Of a stretch of 64,000 bases of DNA, positions 9,619-60,991 are shown piece by piece. Position numbers and translations under genes: made by a program. The stretch spans positions 744,001 through 808,000 of the forward strand of contig NZ_AP017369.1 of NCBI RefSeq assembly GCF_002355155.1, given 5' to 3'. The notes beneath the pieces are model-generated. The model was not told where the DNA came from. It saw only the letters and a program-made list of their open reading frames with translations, and ran no database searches. Within the stretch, counting starts at the first letter, position 1; every line of letters begins with the position of its first letter. The stretch comes from Corynebacterium suranareeae (GTDB taxonomy: Bacteria > Actinomycetota > Actinomycetes > Mycobacteriales > Mycobacteriaceae).

Positions 9619-9698
9619 ATATCTTTTCCCCGCCCGGCTGCAGCAAGCAGCTGTAAAGGTGGGGCGTGGCGTCGAAAAGCAAAAATAGAAGGGCAGAC

Positions 9699-10583
9699 AT
9701 GGACAATTCAACGGTGCGCATCCGGCTGGATCTGGCGTATGACGGCACGGATTTTCATGGCTGGGCGAAGCAGGGGACCAGCGAACTACGCACGGTGCAA
9801 AAAGTGTTGGAAGACAATTTGAGCATGGTGTTGCGTGAACCTGTTGAATTGACCGTGGCCGGGCGAACGGATGCGGGTGTGCATGCAGCTGGCCAGGTGG
9901 CGCATTTTGATGTTCCGGTGCAGGCTTTAGAGCAGCGCAGCATTGATGGCGATCCCACCAAATTGGTTAGGCGCCTGGGCAGGTTGCTGCCTGATGATAT
10001 TCGCGTGCACGGCGTACGTTTTGCCGAGCCCGGGTTTGACGCCCGGTTTTCCGCATTGCGCAGGCACTACGTGTATCGCATTACGACGCACCCTGCCGGC
10101 GCACTCCCAACCCGCCGGTATGACACGGCGCAGTGGCCAAAACCCGTGGACGTCGAGCGCATGCAATTAGCTGCCGATGCGTTGCTGGGCCTGCATGACT
10201 TCGTGGCGTTTTGTAAAGCAAAGCCCCACGCGACAACGGTGCGTGAATTACAAAAATTTGAATGGCGCGATGTATCCACTGATATCGAGCCACAGGTATA
10301 TGAAGCCCATGTGGTGGCAGATGCCTTTTGCTGGTCAATGGTGCGCTCGCTTGTTGGATCGTGCATGGCAGTGGGAGAGGGGCGACGATCATCCGGTTTT
10401 ACTGCAGAATTGCTAGATGCAAGTGAGCGCAGCCCGATGGTTCCTGTAGCACCTGCGAAAGGTTTAAGCCTGGTTGGCGTTGATTATCCAAGCGCTGATA
10501 AGTTACAGGAAAGAGCTCAGGAAACCCGGGCTGTCCGGGAGTTTCCTGACGTGTCCGCGAGCCTAAAACTAGAAGATCAATAA
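9699..10583 (+). CDS. truA: tRNA pseudouridine(38-40) synthase TruA
   Basis: Converts uridines 38-40 in the tRNA anticodon arm to pseudouridine. The catalytic Asp lies in GRTDAGVHAAGQVAHFD near residue 50, and the RRHYVYRI segment is typical. I prefer ATG 9699, which has AGAAGGG 6 nt upstream and gives 294 residues with the family start (VRIRLDLAYDGTDFHGW). GTG 9666 would add 11 residues and also has AAAGG before it, so it cannot be excluded. The 5' region contains the GGCGTCGAAAAGC motif at 9668-9680. Confidence 0.93.
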   Translation: MDNSTVRIRLDLAYDGTDFHGWAKQGTSELRTVQKVLEDNLSMVLREPVELTVAGRTDAGVHAAGQVAHFDVPVQALEQRSIDGDPTKLVRRLGRLLPDDIRVHGVRFAEPGFDARFSALRRHYVYRITTHPAGALPTRRYDTAQWPKPVDVERMQLAADALLGLHDFVAFCKAKPHATTVRELQKFEWRDVSTDIEPQVYEAHVVADAFCWSMVRSLVGSCMAVGEGRRSSGFTAELLDASERSPMVPVAPAKGLSLVGVDYPSADKLQERAQETRAVREFPDVSASLKLEDQ

Positions 10584-10686
10584 AAGGGACTAAACTCGTT
10601 TTTCGTATCTTTCAGTCATCACGGCTGTTTAGAAGACGCGCGCCACGAAATTGGCACAATCACAAGAAAGTGAAGTGGAAACCTAG

Positions 10687-13047: not shown

Positions 13048-13836
13048 TTACAAGGAGTATTCAGTAAAATACCCACAGTTGGTGAAACCTAGTTTTCGAT
13101 AAACAGGCTCACCATCTTCCGAGGCTTGCAACACGGCGGTGCCATAACCTAAATCGCGTGCAGCATGCAGCGTTGCCAAGGTGATGGCTCCGCCGAAGCC
13201 TTGTCGACGCTCACTTTCAAGCGTGGAGATATTGTAAATCCCGGCCACCCCTGAATGCAGGAAAGCTTCCGCCGAACACACTGCGCGGCCTTGAACATAG
13301 CCGACTAGATAGATCGCTGGTGAATCCTTAGCTAAAGCAAATTTTGCAGCTTCGGAATAGAAACGCCTCACAGTTTCAGCCGGTGGATTCCAATTCGCGG
13401 AAAGAACCGCAGCATAATCTTCTAACTCTTTAACAGTTGTCACGATTCGGATTTCTAAACCTTCAGCAGTTGCTTCAGGCAGCGGCTGGGTTAGATCTTT
13501 CCACATGCCGCCTTCGGTTTCAGATGCGCTCCACTGGGCTTTTTCCAGGAGTTCGCCGAGGTTTTCAGGAGTTGATGCTGGTCCGACCCACCAGGAAAAC
13601 GGACGTTGTGTGTTTTTAACGTAAGTGGTGGTTTCAGCAATGCGGTTGACTGCTGTGTTTGAGGTAAAACTAGCGCCTGCAATGATGTTGAAGGTGTCAT
13701 CATCAAGACCACTATCTGCAATGAGGAGATCATTGGTCTGCGTGATTGTTGCTCCATCAAGATGTCGGTGCAGATGGCAGGAATGTTTCGCCAGGTTGTT
13801 TTCTAATGCGCGTTGTAATTGAAGTAGATCGTTCAT
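13048..13836 (-). CDS. GNAT-family N-acetyltransferase
   Basis: 262 residues. The N-terminal half (about 1-120) is unassigned. The C-terminal half is a GNAT domain with the acetyl-CoA-binding motif A around [19 protein letters not shown] (about residues 190-215) and the terminal [16 protein letters not shown] typical of motif B. The acceptor is unknown. A candidate ECF promoter on the same strand lies about 670 nt upstream (14507-14533), with a repeat in between; whether it drives this gene is open. Confidence 0.75.
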
Positions 13837-13904
13837 GGAGCTTCATTCTATGATGCGCCGCATGACCTGTGGCTCAGGAGATGAAGAGCTGGTGCCAAAC
13901 AAAC

Positions 13905-14633: not shown

Positions 14634-15899
14634 ATGGCTGAAGGTATGTTGATGCCCACGACATCGGCGCAGGTGTCGGGGCATAAATTTCTAGTTCGGC
14701 GCATTGAGCACGGGCTGGTGATGGGCGATGTGCGCATGATTCATGATCCGTTGAGTAGGCGTCGCCGGGCGTTGATTTTTGGTGCAGTGGCGTGTGTGAT
14801 GCTGGCGGTGGGATCGTTGGCGTTGGCTATTTTTCGCCCGGCCATGGATCCGGCAGATGCGCCGTTGATTCGTTCGGAATCTGGGGCGCTTTTTGTTCAG
14901 CTTGATGGGGTGGTGCATCCGGTTGCCAATATGGCGTCAGCGCGGTTGATTTTGGGGGAACCTGTCGAGCCGGTCAATGCCAGCGATGTGATCATTACTG
15001 AGATGCCACGCGGGGTGCCGATGGGGTTGCCGGATGCACCGGGGATTTTTAGCACTCCAACAGATGAGGAGCCGGAGCGCGATTGGTTTGTGTGCCAGGA
15101 CGTTGGCACGGGGGACCTGCACGTTGTGGTCACTAGGGATGGGCTAGGGCCTACCCTAATTGCGGAAGGAAATGGGTGGCTGGGGGCGTCGAAAAGCGAA
15201 AACGGTGAGGTGAGCTGGCACCTGATCACCGCAGACGGACGCCGCGAATTGCCAGCGTGGGACAGCCCGCACGGGCGTATTATGCGCCGCTACCTGGGGA
15301 TTTCCGATCATACCCCGCGCATTTACCTCACCACCGAACTACTCAACGCGATCCCGGAGCGCAGCGCCATCGCCTTCCCAAACCCGCTACCTGAGCTTGT
15401 CGACGCCTTCCCCCGCAGCTGGTTACGCGCCGACGGGGCGCTCGCGGAGATCACGCTACTGCAGCGTGCTGTGCTTATCGACGCCGGCTCCAGTGTTTTC
15501 TCCGACCCCACCGCAGTCTTGGGCCTGCATCCAGATATCGATGCTTCATTACAGCTGCCCGCTGACACAGTTGCGTGGCAAGATTTATCCGGTGGTTTTG
15601 CCTGCGCGGACGGCGAAGGCCAGATGGGATTTTTGGAAACTTTAGAATCTGGTGTGGAGCTATCGGGGGATTCCCGCGCAAAAAGCTTTAGCACGCACAC
15701 TGGTGGGGCCGTGGGCGTGGACAGCGGATTCGGCTACTACGTGGTCTCTGATGTTGGGCTAACGCATGCTGTTTCTAGTGGTGAAGAAATGGTGGCATTG
15801 GGGTTAATGGATGTTGATGTCGTGCCGTGGAGCGTATTGAGGTTGCTGCCGCAGGGGAGTGAACTGAGCCGGAAAACTGCACTCGCGCCTGCATATTAA
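14634..15899 (+). CDS. eccB: Type VII secretion core protein EccB
   Basis: Single-pass membrane protein of the ESX/type VII secretion complex; its large C-terminal part lies outside the cytoplasmic membrane. The N terminus carries the EccB hallmark PTTSAQVSGHKFLVRRIEHG and a VMGDVRMIHDPLSRR segment. One transmembrane helix spans about 46-67. At 421 residues it is shorter than mycobacterial EccB proteins (about 480-500), as expected for ESX-4-like systems. GGGGGAA precedes the ATG; later in-frame ATGs at 14646 and 14652 are possible. Three copies of GCGTCGANAAGC lie inside the gene. It is separated from mycP-eccD by unrelated genes. Confidence 0.9.
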   Translation: MAEGMLMPTTSAQVSGHKFLVRRIEHGLVMGDVRMIHDPLSRRRRALIFGAVACVMLAVGSLALAIFRPAMDPADAPLIRSESGALFVQLDGVVHPVANMASARLILGEPVEPVNASDVIITEMPRGVPMGLPDAPGIFSTPTDEEPERDWFVCQDVGTGDLHVVVTRDGLGPTLIAEGNGWLGASKSENGEVSWHLITADGRRELPAWDSPHGRIMRRYLGISDHTPRIYLTTELLNAIPERSAIAFPNPLPELVDAFPRSWLRADGALAEITLLQRAVLIDAGSSVFSDPTAVLGLHPDIDASLQLPADTVAWQDLSGGFACADGEGQMGFLETLESGVELSGDSRAKSFSTHTGGAVGVDSGFGYYVVSDVGLTHAVSSGEEMVALGLMDVDVVPWSVLRLLPQGSELSRKTALAPAY

Positions 15900-21438: not shown

Positions 21439-22812
21439 TTATCCACCGAATCCAATATCAAGTGCACGCAGCATCCCAAACACATCAAGTAAATGCAGTG
21501 CGAGTGGCAGGCTAACGGCAAGGCAGAGAGATTCCAGTCGTTCTAGCCACACAATGGTGGTGGGTTCTAGCGTGGGGATTGTAGAAATCCACAAAGCAAC
21601 GGTGATCAGCACTGCCATGATGACAACCGCGCCAATTAAAGTGACGATGGAGTGTGAGCGGGCAACTGAACATGTTAGAGCTATAAAGCTTAAGGCAGAG
21701 AGCGTCATCAATGACCACGTGGGAACGGCGGCTTGGTGTCGGTTGGCGTGAAGCAGGGTTGCCACAGCGATACACAGGCAAAAGATGGTGCTGGTCCACG
21801 TTGCTGGGGTGGTGACCAGCAATATTAAAGGCCCGCTGATAACCGTGATGCCTAGGATCTGGGCGTCGAAAAGCGTCTTGGTTTTGTGGATTTTTATATC
21901 CGGATTGGTCATGGTGAGGTCGCTGACGGAGAGATCTTCGCCGGCGGTGGGCAGGGTGGGTACGCGAAGGCCTGCGAGTGATGCTGCAATTTTCGGGGCA
22001 AAGCAGATCCCGATCGTGGCTAAAGTGACCGTGGTTGCTGCTGGTCCGCTGAAATCTTCGGTTGCGTTTTTGTCCCAAAGCGCGGTGATTGAGCCCAGTG
22101 TGAAAAGGCATATTCCTGCAGTGGCCAATGTGGCGATAAGCAGAAGTGGTGGGTGGTAGACCACGTGAACGACTAAGCATGCTACTAAAACGGCGCAGGA
22201 AGATGAAAGAAGTATCCAGGTCCACGACCACGAACCTGCATCACCACTGCCTGCAACCAGCAACGCCACCGCCACTCCTGCGCCAACAATGATCAAAATC
22301 GGCAGGATATTTCTGAGAAGAGGTGTGCGTGACCCCGGGAGGAACAACAACAAAAGTGCACACAGAGCAGCGAAAATCCCGATGCGCCCAGGAAGAGCGA
22401 TGCCAGAGGCCGCCGGGCTGGATAATAAAACCGCGCTTCCACATAACCCAGCGAAGGTCATCAATTCAACTAGATAACCGTTGCGGTGTTCGGAAGATAA
22501 CTCCACCAAAGCTTCTGCCACATCGCGGACAACGGGCGCTTCCAAATCTCGTTCGGGTGATAGCACCACTACGCTTCCTTGCTCTACTTGAGTTTGGGAG
22601 AGCGGAATGCCGCAATCAATGGGACTTCCCGCTGCGGTGTGGGCAACCCATGGCCTGGAAATGCGAGGAGCTTGGGTGAGTTCTAAGACTTCGTCCAAGA
22701 TGTCAGCAATGCTTGAACCTGCTGGTAGTGACATATCTGCTACGGCGGCTGGTGTATCACCAACCGCAAGGTCGATTCGGATGCTTACTCTTAAGGCATT
22801 AGAGATCGCCAA
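21439..22812 (-). CDS. eccD: Type VII secretion integral membrane protein EccD
   Basis: 457 residues. The first about 90 form a ubiquitin-like cytoplasmic domain (RVSIRIDLAVGDTPAAVADM, ending VVVLSPERD). The rest is hydrophobic, with about eleven transmembrane helices, matching EccD. The start is TTG at 22812 with no better in-frame choice; GGGGGTTTG lies upstream. It is divergent from eccC and translationally adjacent to mycP. It carries one GCGTCGANAAGC copy at 21863-21874. Confidence 0.9.
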   Translation of the reverse strand: MAISNALRVSIRIDLAVGDTPAAVADMSLPAGSSIADILDEVLELTQAPRISRPWVAHTAAGSPIDCGIPLSQTQVEQGSVVVLSPERDLEAPVVRDVAEALVELSSEHRNGYLVELMTFAGLCGSAVLLSSPAASGIALPGRIGIFAALCALLLLFLPGSRTPLLRNILPILIIVGAGVAVALLVAGSGDAGSWSWTWILLSSSCAVLVACLVVHVVYHPPLLLIATLATAGICLFTLGSITALWDKNATEDFSGPAATTVTLATIGICFAPKIAASLAGLRVPTLPTAGEDLSVSDLTMTNPDIKIHKTKTLFDAQILGITVISGPLILLVTTPATWTSTIFCLCIAVATLLHANRHQAAVPTWSLMTLSALSFIALTCSVARSHSIVTLIGAVVIMAVLITVALWISTIPTLEPTTIVWLERLESLCLAVSLPLALHLLDVFGMLRALDIGFGG

Positions 22813-23031: not shown

Positions 23032-26000
23032 ATGACAACATCGATGGAATCACAACAGGTATCTGAACATGTTGTAGAGCCTTTAACATGGCCAGAACGT
23101 GATCCGGCACCGCCACTGCCAACGGAACCACTGATTGCAGAAACCGTGCCGCAAGCGGTACGACCAAAACCGAAACCGCTGCTCAAAGTACTCATGCCAG
23201 TGATCATGGTGGCTATGGTTTTAGCGATGGTCGGTCTAATGATCCTCACCAGCGGCCAGCTCAACCCCATGGTTTTAATTTTTCCTTTGATGATGGGAAT
23301 GAGCGTGTTGATGATGTTCGCCCCACCTGAAGGTGATGATACTGATGAGATCCGGCGTACTTATTTACGCCACTTGGGGGCATTGCGGGCAAAAGCCACT
23401 GAACATGCAGCGATGCAGCGCAGACATGAATGGCACAGGCATCCGGATCCTTCCACATTGTGGTCAATGCTGGGCAGTAGGCGGATGTGGGAGCGCGCTA
23501 AAGATGATCAAGATTGTTTAGAAATCCGTTTTGGTTTGGGTGTGACCAGGCTTGATCCAGCGATCACCGTCAGTGATTCCGGTGCGCCGGAAGATCTCGA
23601 TCCGGTGTGTGCGGTGTCGTTGCGTCACACCATTAGGGATGTGGGCTCGGTGCAAAGCATGCCGGTGTCAGTACAGCTGCAGGCCTTTCGTTTCATTGGG
23701 CTTAATGGGGCGGGCGCGCATGATTTGGCGCGTGCGTTGGTGTTGCAGTTGTTGTATCACCACGGCCCAGAAGTAGTGGGCATTAAAGCGATCGGGGAGT
23801 CTAATTGGGAGTGGCTGAAATGGGTGCCGCATACGCGTGATCTGGACAAAGCAGCCTTCCGGATTTTGTTGGTGGATTCCGTGTTGACCAACGGCACTGA
23901 AAGCTACATTGATGATCCCAAATGGACCACGATCATTAATGTCGGCGCCCAGGCGAGCACCGCGTTGGGCCAGCTGGCGGAGGATGAGGGGCTGCTGCTG
24001 CACGTCGATAAGCGTTTGCAGGTAACCACCGCCCACGGCGTGGAGGAGCTGGGTACACCGGATGCGGTGAGCTTGGAGCTTGCGGCTGCCTTTGGCCGCC
24101 GGATGACTGCTTTTCGACGCACCCCCACAGCACACGCCGCCATTTCCGGGGAATTGTTGTCCTTGTTGGGAATCGAAGATGTGGAGCATTTAACTCCGGA
24201 AACTTTATGGGCGACCAAGCGGACTCAACCGCGCACGCGTCTGGCGGTGCCGTTGGGACTCAACGCCTCGGGACAGCCGATGGTGTTGGATTTGAAGGAA
24301 TCCGCCCACGGTGGAATGGGGCCGCATGGGTTGTGCATCGGTGCAACAGGCAGCGGAAAATCCGAATTGCTTAGAACGCTTGTTCTAGGGTTGTCTATCA
24401 CTCATTCGCCTGAAGAACTAAACCTGGTGCTGGTTGATTTCAAGGGTGGTGCCACCTTTTTAGGCTTTGAGCAATTGCCACATACGTCTGCGGTGATCAC
24501 CAACCTGGAGGAAGAATCAGTGCTGGTTGAACGCATGCACGATGCGATTTCCGGTGAAATGAACCGCAGGCAAGAAGTACTTCGCCAGGCCGGAAGTTGC
24601 GCCAACGTGGATGAATACAACCAGCTAGAGGGTGTTACCCCGATGCCAGCGCTGCTCATTGTCATTGATGAATTTTCTGAACTTCTAGGCCAGCACCCTG
24701 ATTTTGCTGATCTTTTTGTTGCAGTCGGCCGGTTGGGGCGTTCCCTTCATATTCATTTGTTGCTCGCCAGCCAGCGCTTGGAGGAGGGACGGCTTCGTGG
24801 CTTGGATTCTCACCTGTCCTACCGCATTGGCCTGAAAACTTTCTCCGCTTCTGAATCTCGCCAGGTTTTAGGTATTACCGACGCATATCAATTACCCAGT
24901 CAACCCGGTGCAGGTTTTTTAAAATCCGATGTTGATACCGTCACCCGATTCCAGGCAAGTTACGTTTCCGGCCCCATTGTGCGTCGCCACCGCCTTGCGC
25001 CAACACAATCTCGGGTGCGGCTTTTTGCTGGGTGGGAAGAGGCGGAAGAAGACATCGTTGTTGAAACAGGAAAAGAATCGCTTATCGACGCCGTGGTCAC
25101 CCGCGCAATCACCGCAGCTAATAAGCGGGGCTTAAGCGCTCATCGCATTTGGTTGCCACCACTTCCCGCAGAAGTATCCATCGGTGCGTTGGCTGAAGAT
25201 ATCGGTGAATTACGTGCCGTTATTGGGATGATCGACAGGCCATACCAGCAACGCCAAGACCCATTAGAAATCAATTTCTCACTTAGTGGTGGTAGTGGAC
25301 ACTGGGCTATTTGCGGTGGGCCACAAACCGGAAAATCAACAGCATTGCGCAGCATCGTTGTGTCCATGGCAGCTACCCACAGCACAGAGCACATTAGATT
25401 CTACGTGCTTGATTTATCCGGAACCTCGCTGGAAAACCTCTCCCGATTACCCCACGTTGCCGGAGTGGCAGGACGTAAAGATCCAGAACGAGTCCGCCGC
25501 GTTGTCGATGAAGTACAAGGACTGATCAACCACCCAGAACAACGCCACACCTTCCTCATTGTTGATGGCTGGCACACCATCACCCAAGAATTTGAAGAAC
25601 TTTTTGACGCCTTTGTCAGCATCGCCGCCAACGGCTTAGCCGCTCGAGTCCATCTAGTGTTAAGCACCCAACGCTGGAGCTTAATCAGACCCGCCGTTCG
25701 AGACCTGATAACCGGCAGGATCGAATTGAAGCTGGGCGAAGCAATGGATTCTGTCATCGACAGAAAAGCACAACTGCGCGTTCCCGCAAAACCTGGCAGA
25801 GGTCTCAACCTTGATAAAGAACACATCTTGATTGCTCAAACTTCAACCCAAGACGTCGCCCAAGTAAGCCTCATGGCGAAAGAGCAAGGCTGGCAACCAG
25901 TTCCACAACTGCATGTGCTCCCAGCACAGATCCTCTTGCATGAACTTCAATCCACTACCGCGCCGGGAATCCCGATTGCACGAGGCGGAGCAGAGCTTTC

Positions 26001-26643
26001 TACTTTGACCTGGGATCCAGAAACAAGCCGCCACCTTTTAGCTTTTGGTTCCCAAGGTTGCGGTAAATCTTCACTAATCCGCACGATTGTTACAGGGCTG
26101 ACCATTGTTGGGCGTGACAAAGCCCGCCTAGTGTTTTTTGATCTTCGCCGCACCCACCTTGATCTCGTGCCAGCCGATATGCTGGCTGCTTATTGTGCGA
26201 CATCAACGGCAGTGCACAACACGGTCAAAGATATGGTGACCACGCTATCTGCCAGGCTTCCCGGCCCGGGTGTCACTGCCCAAGAACTCCGCGATCGGTC
26301 CTGGTGGCAAGGCCCTGATATTTACCTTGTCATTGATGATTATGATCTGCTTCCCGCAGGTACGCTGCATCCACTGCGCGAGATCATCCCGCATGCCCGT
26401 GACGTCGGCCTGCACATCGTGCTTGCCCGCAAAGCAGGCGGCGCATCACGCGCGCTATATGATCCGGTGCTCGCTGAGATCAAGGACCAATCACCGCAGG
26501 TAGTGCTTTTCGACGCCGACCGCGACGAAGGTGCCATCCTAGGCATTAAGCCCTCGGCCCAACCACCTGGACGCGCCACAATGTCCATCCGAGGTGAAAA
26601 TATTGGTGTTGCACAGATGGCACGAATGGGTGATGAATCATGA
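23032..26643 (+). CDS. eccC: Type VII secretion ATPase EccC
   Basis: Motor ATPase of the ESX system, 1203 residues in one chain, i.e. an unsplit EccC. Two N-terminal transmembrane helices lie at about 50-75 and 79-96. Three FtsK/SpoIIIE ATPase modules follow, with Walker A loops GATGSGKS (437-444), GGPQTGKS (about 762-769) and GSQGCGKS (about 1006-1013). Walker B of the first is LLIVIDEFSELL near residue 543. All three keep the catalytic Lys, unlike many EccC proteins where modules 2 and 3 are degenerate. GGGGGAG lies about 12 nt before the ATG. It overlaps the next gene by 4 nt. Three GCGTCGANAAGC motifs are inside. Confidence 0.95.
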   Translation: MTTSMESQQVSEHVVEPLTWPERDPAPPLPTEPLIAETVPQAVRPKPKPLLKVLMPVIMVAMVLAMVGLMILTSGQLNPMVLIFPLMMGMSVLMMFAPPEGDDTDEIRRTYLRHLGALRAKATEHAAMQRRHEWHRHPDPSTLWSMLGSRRMWERAKDDQDCLEIRFGLGVTRLDPAITVSDSGAPEDLDPVCAVSLRHTIRDVGSVQSMPVSVQLQAFRFIGLNGAGAHDLARALVLQLLYHHGPEVVGIKAIGESNWEWLKWVPHTRDLDKAAFRILLVDSVLTNGTESYIDDPKWTTIINVGAQASTALGQLAEDEGLLLHVDKRLQVTTAHGVEELGTPDAVSLELAAAFGRRMTAFRRTPTAHAAISGELLSLLGIEDVEHLTPETLWATKRTQPRTRLAVPLGLNASGQPMVLDLKESAHGGMGPHGLCIGATGSGKSELLRTLVLGLSITHSPEELNLVLVDFKGGATFLGFEQLPHTSAVITNLEEESVLVERMHDAISGEMNRRQEVLRQAGSCANVDEYNQLEGVTPMPALLIVIDEFSELLGQHPDFADLFVAVGRLGRSLHIHLLLASQRLEEGRLRGLDSHLSYRIGLKTFSASESRQVLGITDAYQLPSQPGAGFLKSDVDTVTRFQASYVSGPIVRRHRLAPTQSRVRLFAGWEEAEEDIVVETGKESLIDAVVTRAITAANKRGLSAHRIWLPPLPAEVSIGALAEDIGELRAVIGMIDRPYQQRQDPLEINFSLSGGSGHWAICGGPQTGKSTALRSIVVSMAATHSTEHIRFYVLDLSGTSLENLSRLPHVAGVAGRKDPERVRRVVDEVQGLINHPEQRHTFLIVDGWHTITQEFEELFDAFVSIAANGLAARVHLVLSTQRWSLIRPAVRDLITGRIELKLGEAMDSVIDRKAQLRVPAKPGRGLNLDKEHILIAQTSTQDVAQVSLMAKEQGWQPVPQLHVLPAQILLHELQSTTAPGIPIARGGAELSTLTWDPETSRHLLAFGSQGCGKSSLIRTIVTGLTIVGRDKARLVFFDLRRTHLDLVPADMLAAYCATSTAVHNTVKDMVTTLSARLPGPGVTAQELRDRSWWQGPDIYLVIDDYDLLPAGTLHPLREIIPHARDVGLHIVLARKAGGASRALYDPVLAEIKDQSPQVVLFDADRDEGAILGIKPSAQPPGRATMSIRGENIGVAQMARMGDES

Positions 26644-27542
26644 GTATTGAAACTATCGCCATCACAGTTTTAGAAACCGTCACGATCTTTGATGGCCCTG
26701 AAACCATTTACCGTTATGACCTCACCGCAGAAGGCATTCTGGATGGATGGGCATTGCCTGCCGTGTTGGATCAAACACAACAAATCGCTGCAGATAATTG
26801 GCCATCAGTAGACGTGGTGGTCGATGCCACAGATGCTGTGGTTGAAGCCCTAACAACGATGTTTTCTTCCAAGGGGGTGAAATGCAGTGGGGTTGAGATT
26901 GAGGTGGAAAAACCTCCTGTTGAACAAGCACCCAAAATTGACCGCCCCACCAGTGGAAAGCAGGTCCGCCACTTCTACGGCATCAAACCGCTTCATCTGG
27001 TGTTGGTGAGTGTGCTTGTTGGATCAATAGCAGGGGTGTGGTTGATTTCAGGATTTATGGGGCCAGTGGATTCACCGCCAGTGGATAAGGTGGTGGAAAT
27101 TGAAACGGAGGAGGCGTCGATAAGCAATCAACCCCAGCCACAGCCGACCGTGCTGGTGACCGAGGACTTGCTTATTGAGGCACCTTTTGGCTTTGAACTG
27201 CGAAGCGACGGGCAGTCGCGCTACCTGGAAGGCCCTGATCCGAACCTGCGCATCCACATCGGTGTCGACCCACTGCACGGCGCAGACGCCGAGCTGGTCG
27301 CAGAGGAACTGCGCAGACTTATCGCGGACGACCCTGTGCTAGAAGAAATTCCGGCAGGGCAGTGGGGTGAGAAAACCACCATCGACTACCGCGAAACCCC
27401 CGGCGATGGCTCCAATGTGTTGTGGGTGACCTGGTTTGGAGCCGACCGACAATTCAACGTTGGATGCCACAGCAAAGCCGCAGAAACCCTTGTTCACAAG
27501 GCACAATGCCGCAGCGTGATTGAACACCTGACGCTGAAATAA
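26640..27542 (+). CDS. Type VII secretion-associated protein (Rv3446c-like)
   Basis: 300 residues. Its position between eccC and the WXG100 pair is that of Rv3446c in ESX-4, and the sequence fits that group (TIGR03931 type). Residues about 1-90 are a cytoplasmic domain. One transmembrane helix is at about 118-140 (LVLVSVLVGSIAGVWLISGF). A Pro/Gln/Glu linker leads to an outer domain (about 175-300) with two Cys (VGCHS, AQCRS) that could form a disulfide. It may take the place of EccE, which ESX-4 lacks; that is an inference. The start overlaps the eccC stop (ATGA). Confidence 0.78.
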   Translation: MSIETIAITVLETVTIFDGPETIYRYDLTAEGILDGWALPAVLDQTQQIAADNWPSVDVVVDATDAVVEALTTMFSSKGVKCSGVEIEVEKPPVEQAPKIDRPTSGKQVRHFYGIKPLHLVLVSVLVGSIAGVWLISGFMGPVDSPPVDKVVEIETEEASISNQPQPQPTVLVTEDLLIEAPFGFELRSDGQSRYLEGPDPNLRIHIGVDPLHGADAELVAEELRRLIADDPVLEEIPAGQWGEKTTIDYRETPGDGSNVLWVTWFGADRQFNVGCHSKAAETLVHKAQCRSVIEHLTLK

Positions 27543-32521: not shown

Positions 32522-32827
32522 GTGTCTGGATTCGAACTAAAAATAGAAGAAACCTTAGCTACGCTGCGCGGACTTTTGGGGGAAACCGCGCAACAGCACA
32601 GTAAACATCGGCAACAAGTCCCGCACTTTTCACCATCGGCCTCTGGCCGAGGTTTTAGCGCGCAGGGCCGGGCCTTGGCGGAAATGTTTGAGGGGCTGCA
32701 CCGTGGCGTCGAAAAGCGTATCGACGCTTTCACCCACACAACCCAAGCCGCCGCAGAAGAAGTTAAACGATTTGGCGATGCCGACCGCGTGTTTGGCGCT
32801 GGATTTGATGGGATTGAACCGAAGTGA
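32522..32827 (+). CDS. Small helical protein, possible type VII substrate (Rv3440c-like position)
   Basis: 101 residues, GTG start, first gene after ECF site C. Sequence: about 30 N-terminal residues predicted helical (FELKIEETLATLRGLLGETA), a Ser/Gly loop, then a second long helix (LAEMFEGLHRGVEKRIDAFT) with a short tail. That is the size and helical-hairpin outline of an ESX-type protein, but there is no WXG motif. In M. tuberculosis, Rv3440c (103 aa) occupies the same place downstream of glmM. It overlaps the next gene by 4 nt. Function unknown; the link to secretion is inferred from promoter and locus. Confidence 0.6.
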   Translation: MSGFELKIEETLATLRGLLGETAQQHSKHRQQVPHFSPSASGRGFSAQGRALAEMFEGLHRGVEKRIDAFTHTTQAAAEEVKRFGDADRVFGAGFDGIEPK

Positions 32828-35669: not shown

Positions 35670-36755
35670 ATGAACTTGTTGACCACCAAAATTGATCTGG
35701 ATGCCATTGCACATAACACGAGGGTGCTTAAAAAGATGGCGGGTTCAGCGAAGTTAATGGCAGTGGTCAAAGCGAATGCCTATAACCATGGGGTGGAAAA
35801 AGTAGCGCCGGTTATTGCAGCTCATGGTGCAGATGCTTTTGGTGTGGCCACATTGGCGGAGGCGTTGCAGCTGCGTGAGATCGGTATAGCTCAGGAAATT
35901 TTGTGTTGGATTTGGACTCCGGAACAGGATTTTAAAGCCGCACTTGAGCGAAATATTGATTTGGCTGTTATTTCCCCCGCACATGCGCAGGCTTTGATTG
36001 ATTCTGATGATCAGCCGATTCGGGTGTCCATCAAAGTTGAGACTGGCCTGCACCGTTCAGGTGTGGATGAATCTGAGTGGGAAGCCGTGTTCGATGCATT
36101 GGCTGCAGCGCCACACATCGAGGTCACGGGGCTGTTTACGCACTTGGCGTGCGCAGATGAGCCTGAGAATCCAGAAACAGATGAGCAAATAATTGCTTTT
36201 CGACGCGCCCTTGCGCTCGCCCGTAAGCACGGGCTTGAGTGCCCGGTCAACCACGTATGCAACTCTCCCGCATTTTTAACACGTTCTGATCTTCATATGG
36301 AGATGGTCCGACCAGGTTTGGCTTTTTATGGATTGGAACCTGTGGTGGGACTGGACCATGGTTTAAGGCCGGCGATGACATGGGAGGCGAAGGTGAGCGT
36401 CGTAAAGCAAATTGAACCCGGGCAGGGCACGTCCTATGGCCTGACCTGGCGCGCTGAGGATCGCGGTTTTGTGGCAGTAATACCTGCAGGTTATGCCGAT
36501 GGCATGCCGAGGCATGCGCAGGGGAGGTTCTCCGTCACGATTAATGGTGTTGATTATCCGCAGGTTGGGCGTGTGTGCATGGATCAGTTTGTGATTTCTT
36601 TGGGTGAGAATCCGCATGGTGTCCAAGCAGGTGCGCAGGCTGTGATCTTTGGTGAAAATGGGCATGATGCCACTGATTTTGCAGATCGTTTGGGCACCAT
36701 CAACTATGAAGTGGTGTGTCGCCCGACTGGCCGAACTGTTCGTGAATACATTTAA
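35670..36755 (+). CDS. alr: Alanine racemase
   Basis: PLP enzyme interconverting L- and D-alanine for peptidoglycan. 361 residues; the PLP lysine is Lys34 in AVVKANAYNHG. The second catalytic base (Tyr from the partner subunit) lies in the C-terminal beta domain around FVAVIPAGYADGMPRHAQG. AAGGAG right after its stop serves tsaE, so the two form an operon, as alr-tsaE does in mycobacteria. Confidence 0.96.
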   Translation: MNLLTTKIDLDAIAHNTRVLKKMAGSAKLMAVVKANAYNHGVEKVAPVIAAHGADAFGVATLAEALQLREIGIAQEILCWIWTPEQDFKAALERNIDLAVISPAHAQALIDSDDQPIRVSIKVETGLHRSGVDESEWEAVFDALAAAPHIEVTGLFTHLACADEPENPETDEQIIAFRRALALARKHGLECPVNHVCNSPAFLTRSDLHMEMVRPGLAFYGLEPVVGLDHGLRPAMTWEAKVSVVKQIEPGQGTSYGLTWRAEDRGFVAVIPAGYADGMPRHAQGRFSVTINGVDYPQVGRVCMDQFVISLGENPHGVQAGAQAVIFGENGHDATDFADRLGTINYEVVCRPTGRTVREYI

Positions 36756-42372: not shown

Positions 42373-43407
42373 ATGATTGTTTTAGGAATTGAAAGCTCCT
42401 GCGATGAAACAGGCGTGGGAGTAGTCCAGCTGGATAGCCAAGGAAACCTAGAAATCCTTGCTGATGCAGTGGCATCCTCTATGCAGGAGCATGCACGTTT
42501 CGGTGGTGTTGTGCCAGAAATAGCATCCCGGGCCCACCTGGAATCTATGGTCCCCGTGATGCGTGAAGCGTTGAGGGAGGCGGGCGTCGATAAGCCAGAT
42601 GCAGTAGCCGCAACCGTGGGGCCTGGTTTGGCGGGCGCACTGCTGGTGGGGGCGAGCGCTGCGAAAGCGTATGCGGCCGCGTGGGATGTGCCGTTTTATG
42701 CAGTCAACCACCTGGGCGGACACGTAGCTGTGGCCAATTTGGAAGGTGAAACTTTGCCACATTCGGTGGCGTTGTTGGTTTCTGGCGGACACACTCAGCT
42801 CCTTGAGGTAGAAGCGGTGGGCTTGCCCATGAAGGAATTGGGCTCGACGTTGGATGATGCCGCAGGTGAGGCCTATGACAAGGTCTCTCGTCTGCTGGGC
42901 TTGGGCTACCCGGGTGGGCCAGTGATTGATAAATTGGCGCGCCGGGGAAATCCAGAGGCCATTGCGTTTCCTCGAGGATTGATGAAAAAGTCCGATTCGC
43001 GTCATGATTTCAGCTTCTCTGGGTTAAAAACTGCCGTTGCCCGTTTTGTGGAAGCAGCAGAGCGAAACGGTGAAGTTATTTCCGTGGAAGATGTGTGTGC
43101 TTCTTTCCAGGAAGCCGTGTGTGATGTGTTGACGTTTAAGGCTGTGCGCGCGTGTCGTGATGTGGGCGCGAAGGTGTTGTTGCTCGGTGGTGGCGTGGCA
43201 GCCAATTCGCGTTTGCGTGAGCTCGCGGAGGAGCGTTGCGCTAAGGCTGGGATCGAATTGCGGGTGCCTCGTTTCAATTTATGCACCGATAATGGTGTGA
43301 TGATAGCGGCGTTGGCGGCGCAAAGGATCCATGAAGGTGCCAAAGAATCACCAATTTCGGTAGGAACTGATCCTTCTTTGTCCGTTGAGACCCCACAGGT
43401 GTTTTAA
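42373..43407 (+). CDS. tsaD: tRNA threonylcarbamoyl transferase TsaD
   Basis: Catalytic subunit of t6A synthesis; transfers the threonylcarbamoyl group to A37. ASKHA fold, 344 residues: [15 protein letters not shown] at the start, a metal-binding His pair in NHLGGHVAV (near 115), SGGHTQLL, and the C-terminal [20 protein letters not shown] precedes the ATG. It carries one GCGTCGATAAGC copy at 42584-42595. Confidence 0.96.
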
Positions 43408-43425: not shown

Positions 43426-45150
43426 ATGAAACCAGTCTTCTCCGTGGACCAAATCCGACGTGCAGAAAACACACTTCTTGGGCTCCAAGCAGACCCGGAT
43501 GAGTTGATGATTTCAGCTGCATCCGCGGTGGCAGATGTAGCTTTGGCGATGCTCGACGGGCCTGCACCTGCCACATCCGAAGAGGAATCTGTGCTGTTGT
43601 TGGTAGGTCCCGGTGGCAACGGCGGAGATGCGTTATATGCAGGCGCTTTCCTTGCCGAAGAGGGGCATCACGTGGATGCACTGCTGCTGGGAAACGGGAA
43701 AGTTCACCAATCTGCGTTGGCGTATTATGAGTCGCTGGGTGGGCATATCATTGAGGATTTCCCGCCACATAACCTCTATCGCCTCGTCATTGATGGGCTG
43801 TATGGCATTGGCGGTAGGGGAGGGCTGTCGCCGGAGTTGGCGGTGTTGGTGGAGTCCTTTTCCTCCTCTGGTATTTCGATTTTGGCTATCGATACCCCGT
43901 CTGGCGTTCATGCTGATACCGGCGAGCTGCCGCCCGGGGTGATAGTGACCGTTGAGGGTTTTGATGATGACGCCCCCATGGCGCGGCAAAAAGTGGCCAC
44001 CCACATCAACGCAGACGTCACCATCACCTTCGGTGGTTTGCGCCGAGCACACGCGGTCAGTCCTGCGTGCGGTGAGGTCTTGCTGGCCGATATCACCATT
44101 GCCGGTGGTGGCGGTAAGTCGTTGTCTGCTGAATTAGCCCACGTCCAGACGTCAGATGCCACACCTCAGATGTTTGCCTCAACCGCGTGGAACAAACCTG
44201 ATTCCCTTTATGAACAGGCGAATCTCAAAGTGACGGCTCCGCACCTTCAGCAGATTGGCCAGCATTTCACGGTCTTGAATATGGAACCTGGCCCAGATCA
44301 TGACAAATATAGCGGCGGAATTGTCGGTATCGTTGCTGGTAGTGATACGTATCCTGGGGCAGCTGTATTGGCGGTTAAAGCAGCGGTGCGTGCAACAAGT
44401 TCGATGGTGCGCTACGCCGGGCCGGCGGTGAATTTCGTTTTACAGGTGCTGCCGGAGGTCGTCGCAACGCGTTCTGTGGAGTCCACGGGCCGCGTGCAAG
44501 CCTGGGTACATGGACCCGGACGTGGGCTGGACGCGGAGCAATCCGCCGAGCTTGGGCAGTTGCTCAACCGGCCGGAGCCATTGCTTATCGACGCCGACGG
44601 CCTCACATTACTCCAACTCTCAGCGGAGCTGCGGCTAGCACTGACTAAGCGCACAGCACCCACAGTGCTAACTCCTCACAAAGGTGAGTTTGAGCGTATT
44701 GCTAAGGAGTTGCGTTCGGAAGGGGTTTCGATCCCCAACGCGCAAACTGATCCGATCGGTGCAGCGCAAGCATTAGCCAAAGAGTTTGATTGTTGTGTTT
44801 TGCTGAAGGGAAAATTCACAGTTGTTGCAGCGCATGACTTTGTGCATGTGGTCAACGCAGGACATTCGTGGTTGGCAACACCAGGTTCCGGAGACGTGTT
44901 ATCGGGACTCATTGGTGCGCATTTGGCACAAAGCTATGCGGAGCTGAATCGGCTGCCAGAATTTTTCCCTGATGTCGTGTTGTCTGATTCCGCGATTTAT
45001 ACCCAAGTTGCCCCTGCGGTGACCATTCATTCTGTCGCTGCTGCTTTGTCTGCGCAGACCGAATTTGGCCCAGCCCCCACATCTGCTGGCTTGATCGCAG
45101 AAGCCATCCCTGCTGCCACCGCGAAGGTTGATTTCAAACGAATTCTTTAG
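43426..45150 (+). CDS. nnr: Bifunctional NAD(P)H-hydrate epimerase/dehydratase
   Basis: Repairs hydrated NAD(P)H. The N-terminal part (about 1-220) is the epimerase, with VGPGGNGGDALYAGAFLAEE and DTPSGVHADTG. The C-terminal part (about 280-574) is the ADP-dependent dehydratase with the ribokinase-like fold: LTPHKGEFERIAKEL and the catalytic TPGSGDVLSGLIGAHL. Fusion of both is usual in bacteria. No RBS; TACTAT at 43413-43418 stands one -10 distance before the ATG, so the message is probably leaderless. Confidence 0.93.
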   Translation: MKPVFSVDQIRRAENTLLGLQADPDELMISAASAVADVALAMLDGPAPATSEEESVLLLVGPGGNGGDALYAGAFLAEEGHHVDALLLGNGKVHQSALAYYESLGGHIIEDFPPHNLYRLVIDGLYGIGGRGGLSPELAVLVESFSSSGISILAIDTPSGVHADTGELPPGVIVTVEGFDDDAPMARQKVATHINADVTITFGGLRRAHAVSPACGEVLLADITIAGGGGKSLSAELAHVQTSDATPQMFASTAWNKPDSLYEQANLKVTAPHLQQIGQHFTVLNMEPGPDHDKYSGGIVGIVAGSDTYPGAAVLAVKAAVRATSSMVRYAGPAVNFVLQVLPEVVATRSVESTGRVQAWVHGPGRGLDAEQSAELGQLLNRPEPLLIDADGLTLLQLSAELRLALTKRTAPTVLTPHKGEFERIAKELRSEGVSIPNAQTDPIGAAQALAKEFDCCVLLKGKFTVVAAHDFVHVVNAGHSWLATPGSGDVLSGLIGAHLAQSYAELNRLPEFFPDVVLSDSAIYTQVAPAVTIHSVAAALSAQTEFGPAPTSAGLIAEAIPAATAKVDFKRIL

Positions 45151-54085: not shown

Positions 54086-54983
54086 GTGTGTGTACTCGCC
54101 CCTTTGCTTTGTGTTTTGAGTGGAGGGGCGCGTCGATAAGCATCTTTTTGGGCTCCCAGGTCACCCCGATGCTGGCTGCGATGACAAGGATGATCGCAGC
54201 CCATTTCAGCGCGGTGGGGATTTGGTTTAGCAGGATCCAGCCGACCGCTGCGGCGAAGGCTGGTTCGAGGCTGAGCAGGATGCTGAAGATGGGGGCGGGG
54301 AGTCGGCGTAGTGCCGAGAGCTCGAGCGAATAGGGGATAAGCGAGCCCAGAAGTGCTGTGCCAAGTGCCAGGATAAGCAGGGTGGGGGTTTCCATGATGG
54401 GGCCCATGCGCGTTGCACCCAGCGGGAACACTGCTGCTGCGCCGATGATCAGCGCGACGGCGAGGCCACTTGTACCGGGGATGAGTTGGCCGATTTTCTT
54501 TGACGCCAGGATGTAGCACACCCAAAAAATACCCGCGGTGGCCGCGAAAATAACGCCGAGTGGATGTAGTGCTTGTCCTTGAAGTGAATCAATGCCTAAT
54601 AGCGCCATGCCCAGAAATGCTAAAGCTACGCAGATGCCGTTTTTTAGAGTGCGAGCCAGCACAGCGGAGAAGATTAGCGGGCCTAGAAACTCAATGGTCA
54701 CGGCGGTACCCAGCGGAATTAATTCGATGGATGCATAAAACAGGCTGTTCATGCCTCCCAGGGATAATCCCAATAACACCACGGCAATCCATTGTTTTTT
54801 AGTCCAGGACCGCAGACGTGGGCGGATAATCAGGCACATGATCGAGCCTGCGATGAAAAGCCTTAACGAGGTGACAGCCCACGGGCCGATGTGGGGGAAA
54901 AGCTGCGTTCCAATGGCAGCACCAAATTGCAGGGACAGGGCAGAACCCATCACCATCAACACTGCTGAGGACTGTTTATTCAT
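54078..54983 (-). CDS. EamA/RhtA-type exporter (ten-helix drug/metabolite transporter)
   Basis: About 301 residues with ten hydrophobic helices in two EamA repeats (the second ending GWILLNQIPTALKWAAIILV); the C-terminal tail is basic. RhtA-like members export threonine, homoserine or other small metabolites. ATG 54983 is preceded by AAAGG; TTG 55001 is an alternative. It is divergent from a LysR gene with 108 bp between, a common regulator-exporter arrangement. One GCGTCGATAAGC copy lies near its 3' end. Confidence 0.83.
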   Translation of the reverse strand: MNKQSSAVLMVMGSALSLQFGAAIGTQLFPHIGPWAVTSLRLFIAGSIMCLIIRPRLRSWTKKQWIAVVLLGLSLGGMNSLFYASIELIPLGTAVTIEFLGPLIFSAVLARTLKNGICVALAFLGMALLGIDSLQGQALHPLGVIFAATAGIFWVCYILASKKIGQLIPGTSGLAVALIIGAAAVFPLGATRMGPIMETPTLLILALGTALLGSLIPYSLELSALRRLPAPIFSILLSLEPAFAAAVGWILLNQIPTALKWAAIILVIAASIGVTWEPKKMLIDAPLHSKHKAKGRVHTPN

Positions 54984-57581: not shown

Positions 57582-57594
57582 GACTTTGATTAAG

Positions 57595-57625
57595 CGGCAA
57601 TCACCTCTCCGGTGGTTGCCGTTTA
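57595..57625 (+). terminator. Terminator after guaA
   Basis: CGGCAATCACC (57595-57605) pairs with GGTGGTTGCCG (57611-57621), one G-U pair, then TTTAGT. Confidence 0.7.
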
Positions 57626-57711
57626 GTCATTTCTCCGGGTTTTATGTGACTTTTTGGGAGTATGCTGGGAATGATTCTATTATTGCCAAGTCAGAAAGCA
57701 GGAGAGATCCG

Positions 57712-58155: not shown

Positions 58156-58505
58156 ATTTTGCATCTAGACTGCTTCGGCTGAAGTCTCGGGGGACTCTAG
58201 GCTACTCAGGGAACAAATATGCGAATATTCACCACGAGACGCTGGATTTTAGTGGTTTGTGGTGGATATTCCCCGTTTGAAGGGGTGGAGATGCAAATTT
58301 TTGACCGATTTGGGTTCCTGGAGCCTGTTTGTGGTGAGTAGTTGATCAGTAAATTTTCAGGAATCACATTTGCCCCACGAGCCTCAAAATGAACACCTTC
58401 TAGAATCGTTTTTAAGAGCCTGAAAAGGTACCGCCGATAGGGGGAGTCGTTTGGGGAACATTGACTCCTTAAATCGGCTCCTACAGTTAAAGGAGTTGGT
58501 GCTAT
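58156..58505. other. Intergenic region with a degenerate repeat trace
   Basis: 350 bp without a gene. ACCTTCTAGAATCGTTTTTA followed by AGAGCC (about 58,394-58,420) resembles the tail of module A. The rest shows no clear structure. It lies between two genes that converge here. Confidence 0.4.
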
Positions 58506-59684
58506 TTAGGAAGTCTGATCAGCGAACTCCACCTTCACATCGCCAATTCCAGAGTTCACCGTGAGATTCAGCATCGGACCTTCCAATTCAGCATTGTGGG
58601 CGGCGAGATCTCCGACATCACAGCGCGCGGTGCCCACACCAGCGGTACACGTTAGGCTCACTGGCACATCATCGGGCAGGGTCACGATGACTTCTCCGAT
58701 ACCTGAGGTGATTTGGATGTTTTGTTCCTGATCCAATTGGGTGAGGTGACTGAAATCAAGGTTCATTTCACCCACGCCTGAGGTGTAGCTGCTGAGGAGT
58801 TCATCGTTGGTGGGGGAGAGGTAGACATCGCCGATTGCAGCGTCGTCTTCGAAGTGGATAGGATCGATGCTTGCAATAAACAGACCGCCGAGGACGCTTA
58901 TGACGGCTCCGGTACCAACCGCACCGCCGATAACCCACGGCCAAACGTGGCGCTTCTTCTGAGGTTTTTGCGGAGGGACTTGGACATCCCAGGTGTTGTA
59001 TTGGTTTTGGGCGAGCGGATCCCATTGAGGTGCTTCGGGGGTTTGTTGCGCGAAGGGTGCGTAGTAGCCCTCAACTGGGGTGATGGTGCTGAGATCTGGT
59101 TGGGGTTGTGGGTAGAGATCTTCGTTTTTCATGGTGGGATCCTCAGTGACAGTGAATTCGGTGGTTAAAAGTCCGCGGGGTGGAAGGGGGTGTTTCTTAT
59201 GCAACGCCCACCACATGGCTAAAAGGCAAAGGTAAGTAATGGCTGCTGCTGGGCCGAATATGCCTCCAGCGCCGGAGGTTAAAACACCTGAGAACATAAA
59301 GAACGCGATGACCAGCCACCAGCCGTGGTTGCGGTCTTTGGGGTGGCCCGGGGTCCAGAGGGCTTCGATTGGGGAGACTGGAACGGAGTAGCGGGGCATG
59401 CACAGCCACGCGATGAGATAGGCTGCGACACCGGCACCGAAAACACCAGTGACCACGAAAAATAGACGAATGAGCACCGGGTCAATTTGATAACGCACAC
59501 CAATGCCTTCACAAACACCGGCTACTTTAGCGTGACCACCCTGCTTGGCAGGAATGCGTGCGGGGCGGGTCTGCCACATTTGCTGAAAAGTGCCAGTTGC
59601 TAGGTGTGGTGTTGGAGCTTCATAACCAGGTTGGGCAAAAGGGATGAATCCCTGGTTGTGGTGGGGCTCCTGAAAAGTACTCAT
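58506..59684 (-). CDS. esrI: PspC-domain membrane protein, inhibitor of the EsrSR system
   Basis: 392 residues. The PspC domain spans about 45-100 (GGHAKVAGVCEGIGVRYQIDPVLIRLFFVV). Further transmembrane helices are at about 122-160, and one at about 255-277 after a Pro/Gln-rich cytoplasmic stretch. The outer C-terminal domain (about 285-392) shows repeated TSGIGEVIVTLP, AGVGTARCDVG and NSGIGDVKVEF, as in LiaF/DUF4097 proteins. It is divergent from the kinase gene. In C. glutamicum this three-component system (EsrISR) answers envelope stress such as bacitracin. Confidence 0.85.
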   Translation of the reverse strand: MSTFQEPHHNQGFIPFAQPGYEAPTPHLATGTFQQMWQTRPARIPAKQGGHAKVAGVCEGIGVRYQIDPVLIRLFFVVTGVFGAGVAAYLIAWLCMPRYSVPVSPIEALWTPGHPKDRNHGWWLVIAFFMFSGVLTSGAGGIFGPAAAITYLCLLAMWWALHKKHPLPPRGLLTTEFTVTEDPTMKNEDLYPQPQPDLSTITPVEGYYAPFAQQTPEAPQWDPLAQNQYNTWDVQVPPQKPQKKRHVWPWVIGGAVGTGAVISVLGGLFIASIDPIHFEDDAAIGDVYLSPTNDELLSSYTSGVGEMNLDFSHLTQLDQEQNIQITSGIGEVIVTLPDDVPVSLTCTAGVGTARCDVGDLAAHNAELEGPMLNLTVNSGIGDVKVEFADQTS

Positions 59685-59788
59685 AGACTCTATTGTGGAG
59701 TGTTGTGGCTGATAAGTGAATGGGGGAAAGCCCTGAAAAGGTGGCGTTCAGGGTGTTCCCTGATGGATACGTGTCGCAGGGGCATGAC

Positions 59789-60991
59789 ATGATCGAAGAT
59801 ATGAGTAACACACCTGCGCCCTATACCCCGCAGCCTGCGGGGCAAGCGGTGCCTTTATATCCCACGTTTACCCGGTCCAGAGATGGTCGGGTTGTTGCGG
59901 GTGTCGCATCGGGGTTGGCTAAGCACCTTAATGTGTCGGTGTTTTGGGTTCGTGCGCTGCTGATTTTCGCGGCGTTGTTAAGTGGCGCGGGTCTTTTTGC
60001 GTATGCCTTGATTTGGATTTTTACGCGCATTGAGAAAAAGGGGAGTGGGGAGGCGTCGACAAGCAAGCGCTGGGTGTCGTGGTGCCTGGTGCTGCTCGCT
60101 ATCGGTGGTGCTGCGGCGTCGGTGATGCTGAGCACCGGCTTCGCGGTGGGCACGCTGGTGCCCATCGGCGTGGTCGGTGTGGGCCTGTTGATGGTGTGGC
60201 TGGCGTATGACCGCGGGGTGGAATCCGGCCCGAATCTGCTGATCATTGCCACCGGCGGTGTGCTGATGCTGGCGGCAATCGTGCTGATTGTCATGAATTG
60301 GAGCACCCAAGACGGCTTCGTGCTGGCGCTGGTTGCCGTGGTGCTCACGCTGGTTGGTGTCGCAGCACTCGGCGTGCCGTTGTGGGTACGGATGTGGGAT
60401 CAGCTGGGCGAGGAGCGCGCGGAAAAGGCCGCAGCTGCTGAGCGCGCGGACATTGCTTCCCGCCTGCATGATTCGGTGCTGCAGACCTTGGCGCTGATTC
60501 AAAAGCGTGCCGACGACCCCGCCGAAGTCGCCCGCCTAGCCCGCGGGCAGGAACGCGAGCTGCGTCAATGGCTGTTTGATTCCCAAGATAAAACACCCCA
60601 AACAACCGGCACTGTATTTACTGCGTTGGAACGCGCCTGCGGTGAAGTTGAAGATATTTACGCCCTGCGCATCGTGCCCGTGACGGTGGGAACTGATGAG
60701 CCGTTGACTGAGAAAACGCAGGCAGCGGTGATGGCAGCGCGGGAAGCGCTGGTGAATGTGGCCAAGCATGCAGGTGTAGAAACCGCCGATGTGTACGCCG
60801 AAATTATGCTCGGTGAGCTAAGCATCTTCGTCCGCGACCGTGGCAAAGGATTCGACCCCGACAACATCCCCGACGGACACCACGGCCTGGCTGAATCTGT
60901 GCACGGACGCGTGGAACGAGCGGGAGGAAAAGTACGCATTAAATCTGACGTCGGTGAAGGTACAGAAGTGGCAATCACCATGGATGTGTAG
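59789..60991 (+). CDS. esrS: Envelope-stress sensor histidine kinase
   Basis: About 400 residues from ATG 59789, with AGGGG 7 nt upstream; ATG 59720 and ATG 59801 are alternatives. It begins with its own PspC-like domain (RDGRVVAGVASGLAKHLNVSVFWVRALLIFAALL) and has several membrane helices to about residue 190. The HisKA_3 domain holds the phospho-acceptor His in ADIASRLHDSVLQTLALIQK. The ATPase part has NVAKHAGVETADVY and RDRGKGFDPDNIPDGHHGL. Earlier name cgtS8. It pairs with the downstream NarL-type regulator. Confidence 0.9.
   Translation: MIEDMSNTPAPYTPQPAGQAVPLYPTFTRSRDGRVVAGVASGLAKHLNVSVFWVRALLIFAALLSGAGLFAYALIWIFTRIEKKGSGEASTSKRWVSWCLVLLAIGGAAASVMLSTGFAVGTLVPIGVVGVGLLMVWLAYDRGVESGPNLLIIATGGVLMLAAIVLIVMNWSTQDGFVLALVAVVLTLVGVAALGVPLWVRMWDQLGEERAEKAAAAERADIASRLHDSVLQTLALIQKRADDPAEVARLARGQERELRQWLFDSQDKTPQTTGTVFTALERACGEVEDIYALRIVPVTVGTDEPLTEKTQAAVMAAREALVNVAKHAGVETADVYAEIMLGELSIFVRDRGKGFDPDNIPDGHHGLAESVHGRVERAGGKVRIKSDVGEGTEVAITMDV

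Follow-up and report, generated by a model that had tools for sequence, protein, structure and literature searches.

A repeated 12-base motif in Corynebacterium as the probable core of an uptake-like DNA sequence

Why should a 12-base word recur, letter for letter, along a stretch of bacterial chromosome, and mostly within genes? This question was raised by a 64-kb window of Corynebacterium suranareeae (positions 744001-808000 of a one-contig genome of 3,537,507 bases; "the window" denotes this whole stretch), in which the word GCGTCGANAAGC, with 11 fixed bases and one free base (N), is found in 16 exact copies, eight per strand. Our analysis suggests that this 12-mer is probably the core of a genus-wide self-recognition sequence for DNA uptake, resembling the DNA uptake sequences (DUS) of Neisseriaceae and the uptake signal sequences (USS) of Pasteurellaceae and evolved independently in Actinobacteria. 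Recounting the window bore out the copy number and orientations given in a sequence-only reading of this DNA, together with its observation of a G in front of 13 of the 16 copies and of A or T at N in 13 of 16. Fifteen of its start coordinates were right, the exception, given as 15405, being the minus-strand copy at 15395-15406. Its list of one-mismatch copies needed more correction: there are seven (13199, 24002, 32716, 36397, 52064, 55938, and 61180), among which 24002, 32716, and 55938 had been placed correctly, two had been given as 52067 and 61178 instead of 52064 and 61180, and those at 13199 and 36397 had been missed. The claim that the copies lie inside genes held for the 14 located in open reading frames (ORFs) of at least 250 amino acids; the copies at 32706 and 41338 lie in none, and that at 9669 may be intergenic. 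The reported clustering in eccB and eccC, three copies each, stood, with both genes confirmed by NCBIfam.

The abundance of the motif far exceeded chance. Dinucleotide-shuffled versions of the window (n = 100) contained a mean of 0.08 copies and never more than one, and the whole genome held 644 copies (334 forward and 310 reverse) compared with 4 of a reversed-pattern control; the window is therefore ordinary for its chromosome. In a sample of 464 kb, comprising the window and 20 further stretches of the same genome, 86 copies were observed, whereas 60 codon-aware shuffles, which exchanged synonymous codons in genes and letters between genes, yielded a mean of 1.9 and a maximum of 6. With genes and phases assigned by a simple home-made gene caller, 70 of the 86 copies lay in genes (44 antisense and 26 sense) and occupied all six phases. 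The sequence-only reading was thus right that different reading frames are used, but their use is uneven, the antisense phase reading xL[ILVF]DA accounting for 36 of the 70 coding copies.

To follow the copies through divergence, the window was aligned to the related genomes G034 (82% identity over 50.5 kb) and G038 (80% over 51.3 kb). The orthologous site was intact at 13 of 15 positions in G034 (one unaligned site excluded) and at 12 of 14 in G038 (one unaligned and one gapped site excluded), against a background of 18% of all aligned 12-mers being equally conserved. At the G034 sites, 3 of 165 cells had changed at the 11 fixed positions. The free N serves as an internal control, with 6 of 15 changed, and the flanks showed 102 changes in 400 cells and 111 in 472 (about 24%). 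In G038, changes were seen in 9 of 154 fixed cells, eight of them in a single, apparently misaligned site. Together, the synonymous shuffling and the orthologous-site comparison show that the motif is maintained at the DNA level, as the sequence-only reading had proposed.

The motif is a property of much of the genus. Among 242 Corynebacterium genomes, 138 carried at least 100 copies, 37 carried 21-99, and 67 carried 20 or fewer, with a maximum of 869. Both orientations are used (21,275 forward and 21,251 reverse copies in the 175 genomes with at least 21), although these totals are no test of polarity, because a polar motif also balances over a whole chromosome. Counts under named records, which cover 22 of 80 loci (17 of them Corynebacterium), were higher for C. 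lemuris (360), C. silvaticum (337), C. aurimucosum (210), Corynebacterium striatum (201), C. minutissimum (191), and C. alimapuense (178), followed by C. tuberculostearicum (142), C. mastitidis (75), C. meridianum (21), C. pygosceleis (20), and C. otitidis (5). The 37 genomes with intermediate counts may reflect decay, mixed spelling, or young gain, which counts do not tell apart. In a draw of 151 genomes from the family, 11 of them of this genus, the other 140 genomes (30 genera) carried 1-53 copies, most of them near the reversed control; a mild excess of 32-53 copies, with controls of 6-14, was noted in G338, G333, G320, G275, G356, and G255.

Genomes poor in the motif revealed further spellings. 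In G001, where the first spelling occurs just seven times, GCATCGGCAAGC stood out in 100 kb. Seventeen of 65 motif-poor genomes contained a second spelling, GCATCGNNAAGC (dialect 2), each with 73-551 copies; the remaining 48 contained at most 35 copies, and the genome of the window contained 16. The first and second spellings have a core in common. G012 carried 482 copies of GCGRCGTCATNA compared with 4 of its reversed form, a word reaching at most 23 copies in 52 other genomes searched; in 160 kb of G012, CG[GA]CGTCA reached no more than 1,044 per Mb when the bracketed position could be any base. This word shares only part of the core with the others and lacks the guanine arm described below, but it is likely a third spelling, kin to the first two. 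There are thus at least two, and probably three, lineage-specific spellings. They were placed on a tree of the helicase adjoining the tad genes, a single gene with 46 rows and 12 of 43 inner branches open, on which G012 was counted as dialect 2 and the spellings of KPL1814, J010B-136, and ACRPS were assigned from genomes with identical motif counts. The dialect-2 label required five changes, three of them forced by starred branches, and the dialects do not follow the species tree.

A de novo word search in six motif-less genomes (G007, G011, G029, G043, G121, and G132; 120-240 kb each) returned no clear motif. In the GC-rich G121 (70% GC), GGCGTCC was counted 323 times in 140 kb with 114 expected, perhaps through codon bias and perhaps as another spelling. 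G132, motif-less with a strong TadA match, had 13 copies of AGCTAAGGC in 120 kb and 241 copies of CGTCGA in 240 kb with 123 expected, which may be a decayed or a different motif. Excesses were also seen for GGCGTCGA in G007 (23 versus 7) and TGATCGCGAC in the sample of G217 (14 versus 0.6 expected).

The conserved site extends beyond the 12-mer. With base expectations set by strand and codon position, the 86 sites of this genome showed an excess of G at -11 to -9, -7, -6, -4 to -2, and 0, and more weakly at -27, -24, -21, and -18, accompanied by an excess of A at -5, 13, and 14 and of T at 17. The three-base spacing of the G excess may be partly a residual coding signal. The upstream G arm recurred, similar but not identical, in other species (94 pooled sites, 54 from three genomes) and in dialect 2 (84 sites, 40 from G001), most strongly at -12 to -9 and -3 to 0, and the downstream A/T preference recurred in other species at 13 and 17. 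A first-spelling locus that had entered the dialect-2 set contributed no site. The site is asymmetric and longer than 12 bases. The spacing of the guanine runs hinted at a possible two-tetrad quadruplex. Two pairs among the 86 copies abut in inverted orientation and are able to form hairpins: the pair at 1240048 (starts 12 bp apart) is a perfect palindrome, and that at 1247889 (starts 14 bp apart), between convergent genes, has one mismatch at N. Both are possible terminators.

The orientation of the copies along the chromosome also supported the absence of the strand bias typical of Chi or of FtsK-orienting polar sequences (KOPS), which the sequence-only reading had asserted. In a 100-copy subset of this genome, forward and reverse copies numbered 28/22 and 26/24 on the two chromosome halves; the sampled stretches, a separate count, gave 24/33 and 16/13. 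The GC skew changed sign between 1.58 and 1.75 Mb, near 1.7 Mb, so that the halves approximate replichores. Neither polarity relative to replication, as for Chi, nor polarity towards dif, as for KOPS (dif not located), was found in this genome.

Copies were scarce in one part of the chromosome, where samples of 20 kb at 1.92, 2.09, and 2.26 Mb contained 0, 0, and 1 copies compared with a mean of 3.5. Among 14 proteins from the 1.92 and 2.09 Mb stretches scanned in one or both libraries, the former stretch encoded collagen-like proteins matching phage tail or tail-fibre families, although such repeats can match loosely, and one protein strongly matching a phage family of unknown function; the latter encoded a tyrosine integrase. 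The largest copy-free gap in the 100-copy subset (246 kb) fell in the 1.92-2.26 Mb region but was not significant alone (about 0.10). Between approximately 1.90 and 2.15 Mb, low-GC, strongly skewed stretches carried the tail-type collagen-like genes and the integrase, and one protein was 49% identical over 69% of its length to a Staphylococcus SPbeta-like phage protein; this region is possibly a large prophage. Corynephages, sought as a control for foreign DNA, did not appear by name among the organisms listed in our protein searches, which in part gave the commonest names only.

Genes that could serve DNA uptake are present in this genome. ComEA (SLBB and helix-hairpin-helix domains) adjoins ComEC in an operon, and a tad locus beside the helicase encodes TadA (T2SSE), a pair of T2SSF proteins, a pilin-like protein with DUF4244, and two small proteins. 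The labels SerB, SsdA, Flp, TadE, and TadF follow gene order; a Pfam scan of SsdA, TadE, and TadF found no family. The tad locus was present in all 23 genomes compared, with TadB undetected in five motif-less genomes and SsdA in one of those; TadA was present in 80 of 80 genomes searched and ComEA in 21 of 21 loci looked at. ComEC, found in 241 of 242 genus genomes, was rejected as a discriminator, being near-universal. Its gene had an internal TGA in G124 and two matches in G014, G091, and G229, consistent with pseudogenes or assembly errors. A TadA match of at least 165 bits to PF00437 was present in 52 of 53 motif-bearing genomes and in 5 of 27 motif-less ones, in a comparison of 80 of the 242 genomes that we chose ourselves, with the threshold set afterwards and G012 counted as bearing. 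Earlier studies describe transformation of Micrococcus luteus as requiring Flp pili and ComEC, and tad genes together with ComEA/ComEC as frequent in Actinobacteria (PMC4322843, PMC6370729).

What might keep such a motif in place other than uptake? The main competing explanation is a site for a nucleoid or chromosome-organising protein, kept by selection for chromosome structure or segregation. It would accommodate the lack of strand bias, the genome-wide spread, and the orthologous conservation, and the sparse samples at 1.92-2.26 Mb lie roughly opposite the record start, as for factors excluded from the terminus. However, the phage-like genes in two of the three sparse samples would suffice for this scarcity, and the largest gap in the 100-copy subset was not significant. 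It would also, we infer, be unusual for an essential structural protein to bind a long asymmetric site that sister groups spell in entirely different ways; we regard this explanation as unlikely. Improbable to a greater degree is a marker of self for a defence or DNA-processing system (restriction-modification, Wadjet/MksBEFG, or nuclease control). Chromosome-wide occurrence and absence from the two phage-like stretches would suit such a marker, but Wadjet JetD, the only Wadjet component searched, was unrelated to the motif in 80 of the 242 genomes (10 of 40 with the first spelling, 4 of 12 with dialect 2, one of them weak, and 7 of 28 others), and known restriction sites are shorter than this site with its G arm.

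Chi and KOPS are over-represented oligomers like the Corynebacterium motif, which is moreover asymmetric, as a polar sequence steering RecBCD/AdnAB or FtsK would be; they differ by their polarity with replication, and the lack of polarity contradicts, in this genome, any mechanism requiring it, leaving this possibility with very little weight. HIP1 of cyanobacteria shares very high copy number and the lack of strand bias, but is a palindrome, whereas our motif is asymmetric and longer. The sequence-only reading had itself raised a codon-aware expectation and derivation from one recent mobile element as ways to dismiss the motif, and one reading frame does hold about half of the coding copies (36 of 70). 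Nevertheless, 86 copies are seen where synonymous shuffling gives 1.9, all six phases are occupied, 16 copies are intergenic, and the sites recur at orthologous positions in relatives that share about 80% identity where they align. A by-product of these kinds is refuted and retains practically no probability. The sequence-only reading, which had compared the motif with DNA-uptake sequences and with the site of a chromosome-organising protein, is supported. Of these two alternatives uptake is favoured, although without proof, by the dialects, by the longer arm, by the lack of the motif in phage-like stretches, and by the competence genes.

We infer an uptake route with a receptor and with sites kept up by biased uptake. 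The Tad/Flp pilus machinery, or a protein that partners it, would catch extracellular DNA at the cell surface and might do so by binding the core together with the guanine-rich upstream arm; ComEA and ComEC would then bring one strand in, to recombine into the chromosome. If motif-carrying DNA entered more often, sites matching the receptor could spread and be restored at orthologous places while foreign DNA would be without them, and a shift in receptor specificity could give rise to a new spelling.

Such sequences are described in PMC12616744 as known only from Neisseriaceae and Pasteurellaceae. The Corynebacterium motif matches them in copy number, orientation, dialects, arm, conservation, and gene context. 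Like it, the Pasteurellaceae USS occurs in hundreds of copies and in lineage variants, its short core and more weakly conserved arm together spanning up to about 32 bp (PMC12616744), and its reading frames are unevenly used (PMC2346458). Core and arm are unrelated in sequence, however: the arm is upstream and guanine-rich in Corynebacterium but downstream and AT-rich in the USS, and the Corynebacterium host is an actinobacterium with Tad-type pilus genes. The Neisseriaceae DUS is likewise about 12 bases long, has dialects with a common inner core (PMC3630211), and forms inverted pairs. We think it likely that the motif works like an uptake sequence, without classing it as a member of either the DUS or the USS.

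Several observations weigh against uptake. Dialect 2 does not form one clade but is scattered on the tree, partly beside C. tuberculostearicum with the first spelling, whereas the dialects of Pasteurellaceae and Neisseriaceae are reported to follow the species tree, a trait that does not strictly define them. Inverted pairs and intergenic copies are common in Neisseriaceae but rare in Corynebacterium: in addition to the two pairs among 86 copies, two were seen among 153 at other first-spelling loci and none among 84 dialect-2 copies, and the 16 intergenic copies (18.6%) indicate no enrichment relative to the 20.3% of non-coding sequence. Positions along genes, counted by fifths (12, 15, 16, 13, and 14), reveal no gene-end bias, unlike that reported in PMC2346458 for the USS. 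The downstream A/T preference was not seen in dialect 2. Any important DNA-binding site would give the same orthologous conservation; the free N of G038 is a weak control (2 of 14 changed), and in the more distant G042 and G046 (76%) only 2 of 8 and 2 of 6 aligned sites were intact, against 9-10% of aligned 12-mers, so the sites turn over. On the side of the machinery, ComEA, ComEC, and the tad genes also occur in genomes without a detected motif and are therefore no predictor of it; the one genome without a ComEC match, G186 (90% complete), carries 160 copies of dialect 2; and ancestry confounds the TadA correlation, 6 of 10 motif-less tree rows belonging to one group. A counterpart of the DUS receptor ComP was not found, and a comparison of TadA-C, TadE, TadF, Flp, and ComEA between sister species with the first spelling (R) and dialect 2 (D) yielded no outlier among the matches listed. 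Natural transformation of Corynebacterium was not found in the literature searched, which comprised open-licence papers only. Nothing on the motif, or on uptake sequences in Corynebacterium, turned up in the same literature. An exact 12-mer spelling occurs in four papers whose titles and abstracts concern other matters, two of them on C. glutamicum (PMC4979012, PMC9769921), and a search of PMC8467076 for uptake-sequence terms found none.

The individual copies of the window and their state in the four relatives are given in Table 1. Other words are abundant in this DNA as well: the palindrome GCAGCTGC was the most frequent 8-mer of the window (counted 28 times over both strands), and in a sample of this genome GGGTCTCCT occurred 20 times with 1.7 expected and CGCGCCGGG 31 times with 3.6 expected.

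Table 1. Exact motif copies in the window, with their gene context and their state at orthologous places in related genomes
Copy and context	Position	Strand	State in relatives
GCGTCGAAAAGC, start of truA ORF, may be intergenic	9669..9680	+	intact in G034, unaligned in G038
eccB	15186..15197	+	intact in G038; one mismatch in G034
eccB	15395..15406	-	intact in G038; two mismatches in G034
eccB	15473..15484	-	intact in G034 and G038
eccD, antisense	21863..21874	+	intact in G034 and G038
eccC	24109..24120	-	intact in G034; gapped alignment in G038; four mismatches in G042
eccC	25080..25091	-	intact in G034, G042, and G046; one mismatch in G038
eccC	26505..26516	-	intact in G034 and G038; lost in G042 and G046
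type VII secretion-associated gene	27114..27125	+	intact in G034 and G038
no ORF of at least 250 amino acids; overlapped by one-mismatch inverted copy 32716-32727	32706..32717	+	intact in G034 and G038
alanine racemase gene	36195..36206	-	intact in G034; lost or misaligned in G038; lost in G042 and G046
no ORF of at least 250 amino acids	41338..41349	-	intact in G038; one mismatch in G042; unaligned in G034
tsaD	42584..42595	+	intact in G034 and G038; lost in G042 and G046
NAD(P)H-hydrate dehydratase/epimerase-like gene (below NCBIfam cut-off)	44583..44594	-	intact in G034, G038, G042, and G046
RhtA-like exporter gene, antisense (below NCBIfam cut-off)	54130..54141	+	intact in G034 and G038
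sensor histidine kinase-like gene (below NCBIfam cut-off)	60053..60064	+	intact in G034 and G038

Corynebacterium species are used in industry and are common on human skin. On balance, we lean towards the view that this genus harbors the first uptake sequence outside Neisseriaceae and Pasteurellaceae, a third independent origin of the trait, read by a Tad-pilus-based machine in bacteria with a mycolic-acid outer layer and existing in three or more spellings, which split the genus into groups of preferential DNA exchange. If this is true, the trait would have evolved a third time and with different pili, natural transformability of these bacteria would be predicted, and the origin and switching of such sequences would become testable in many closely related pairs.

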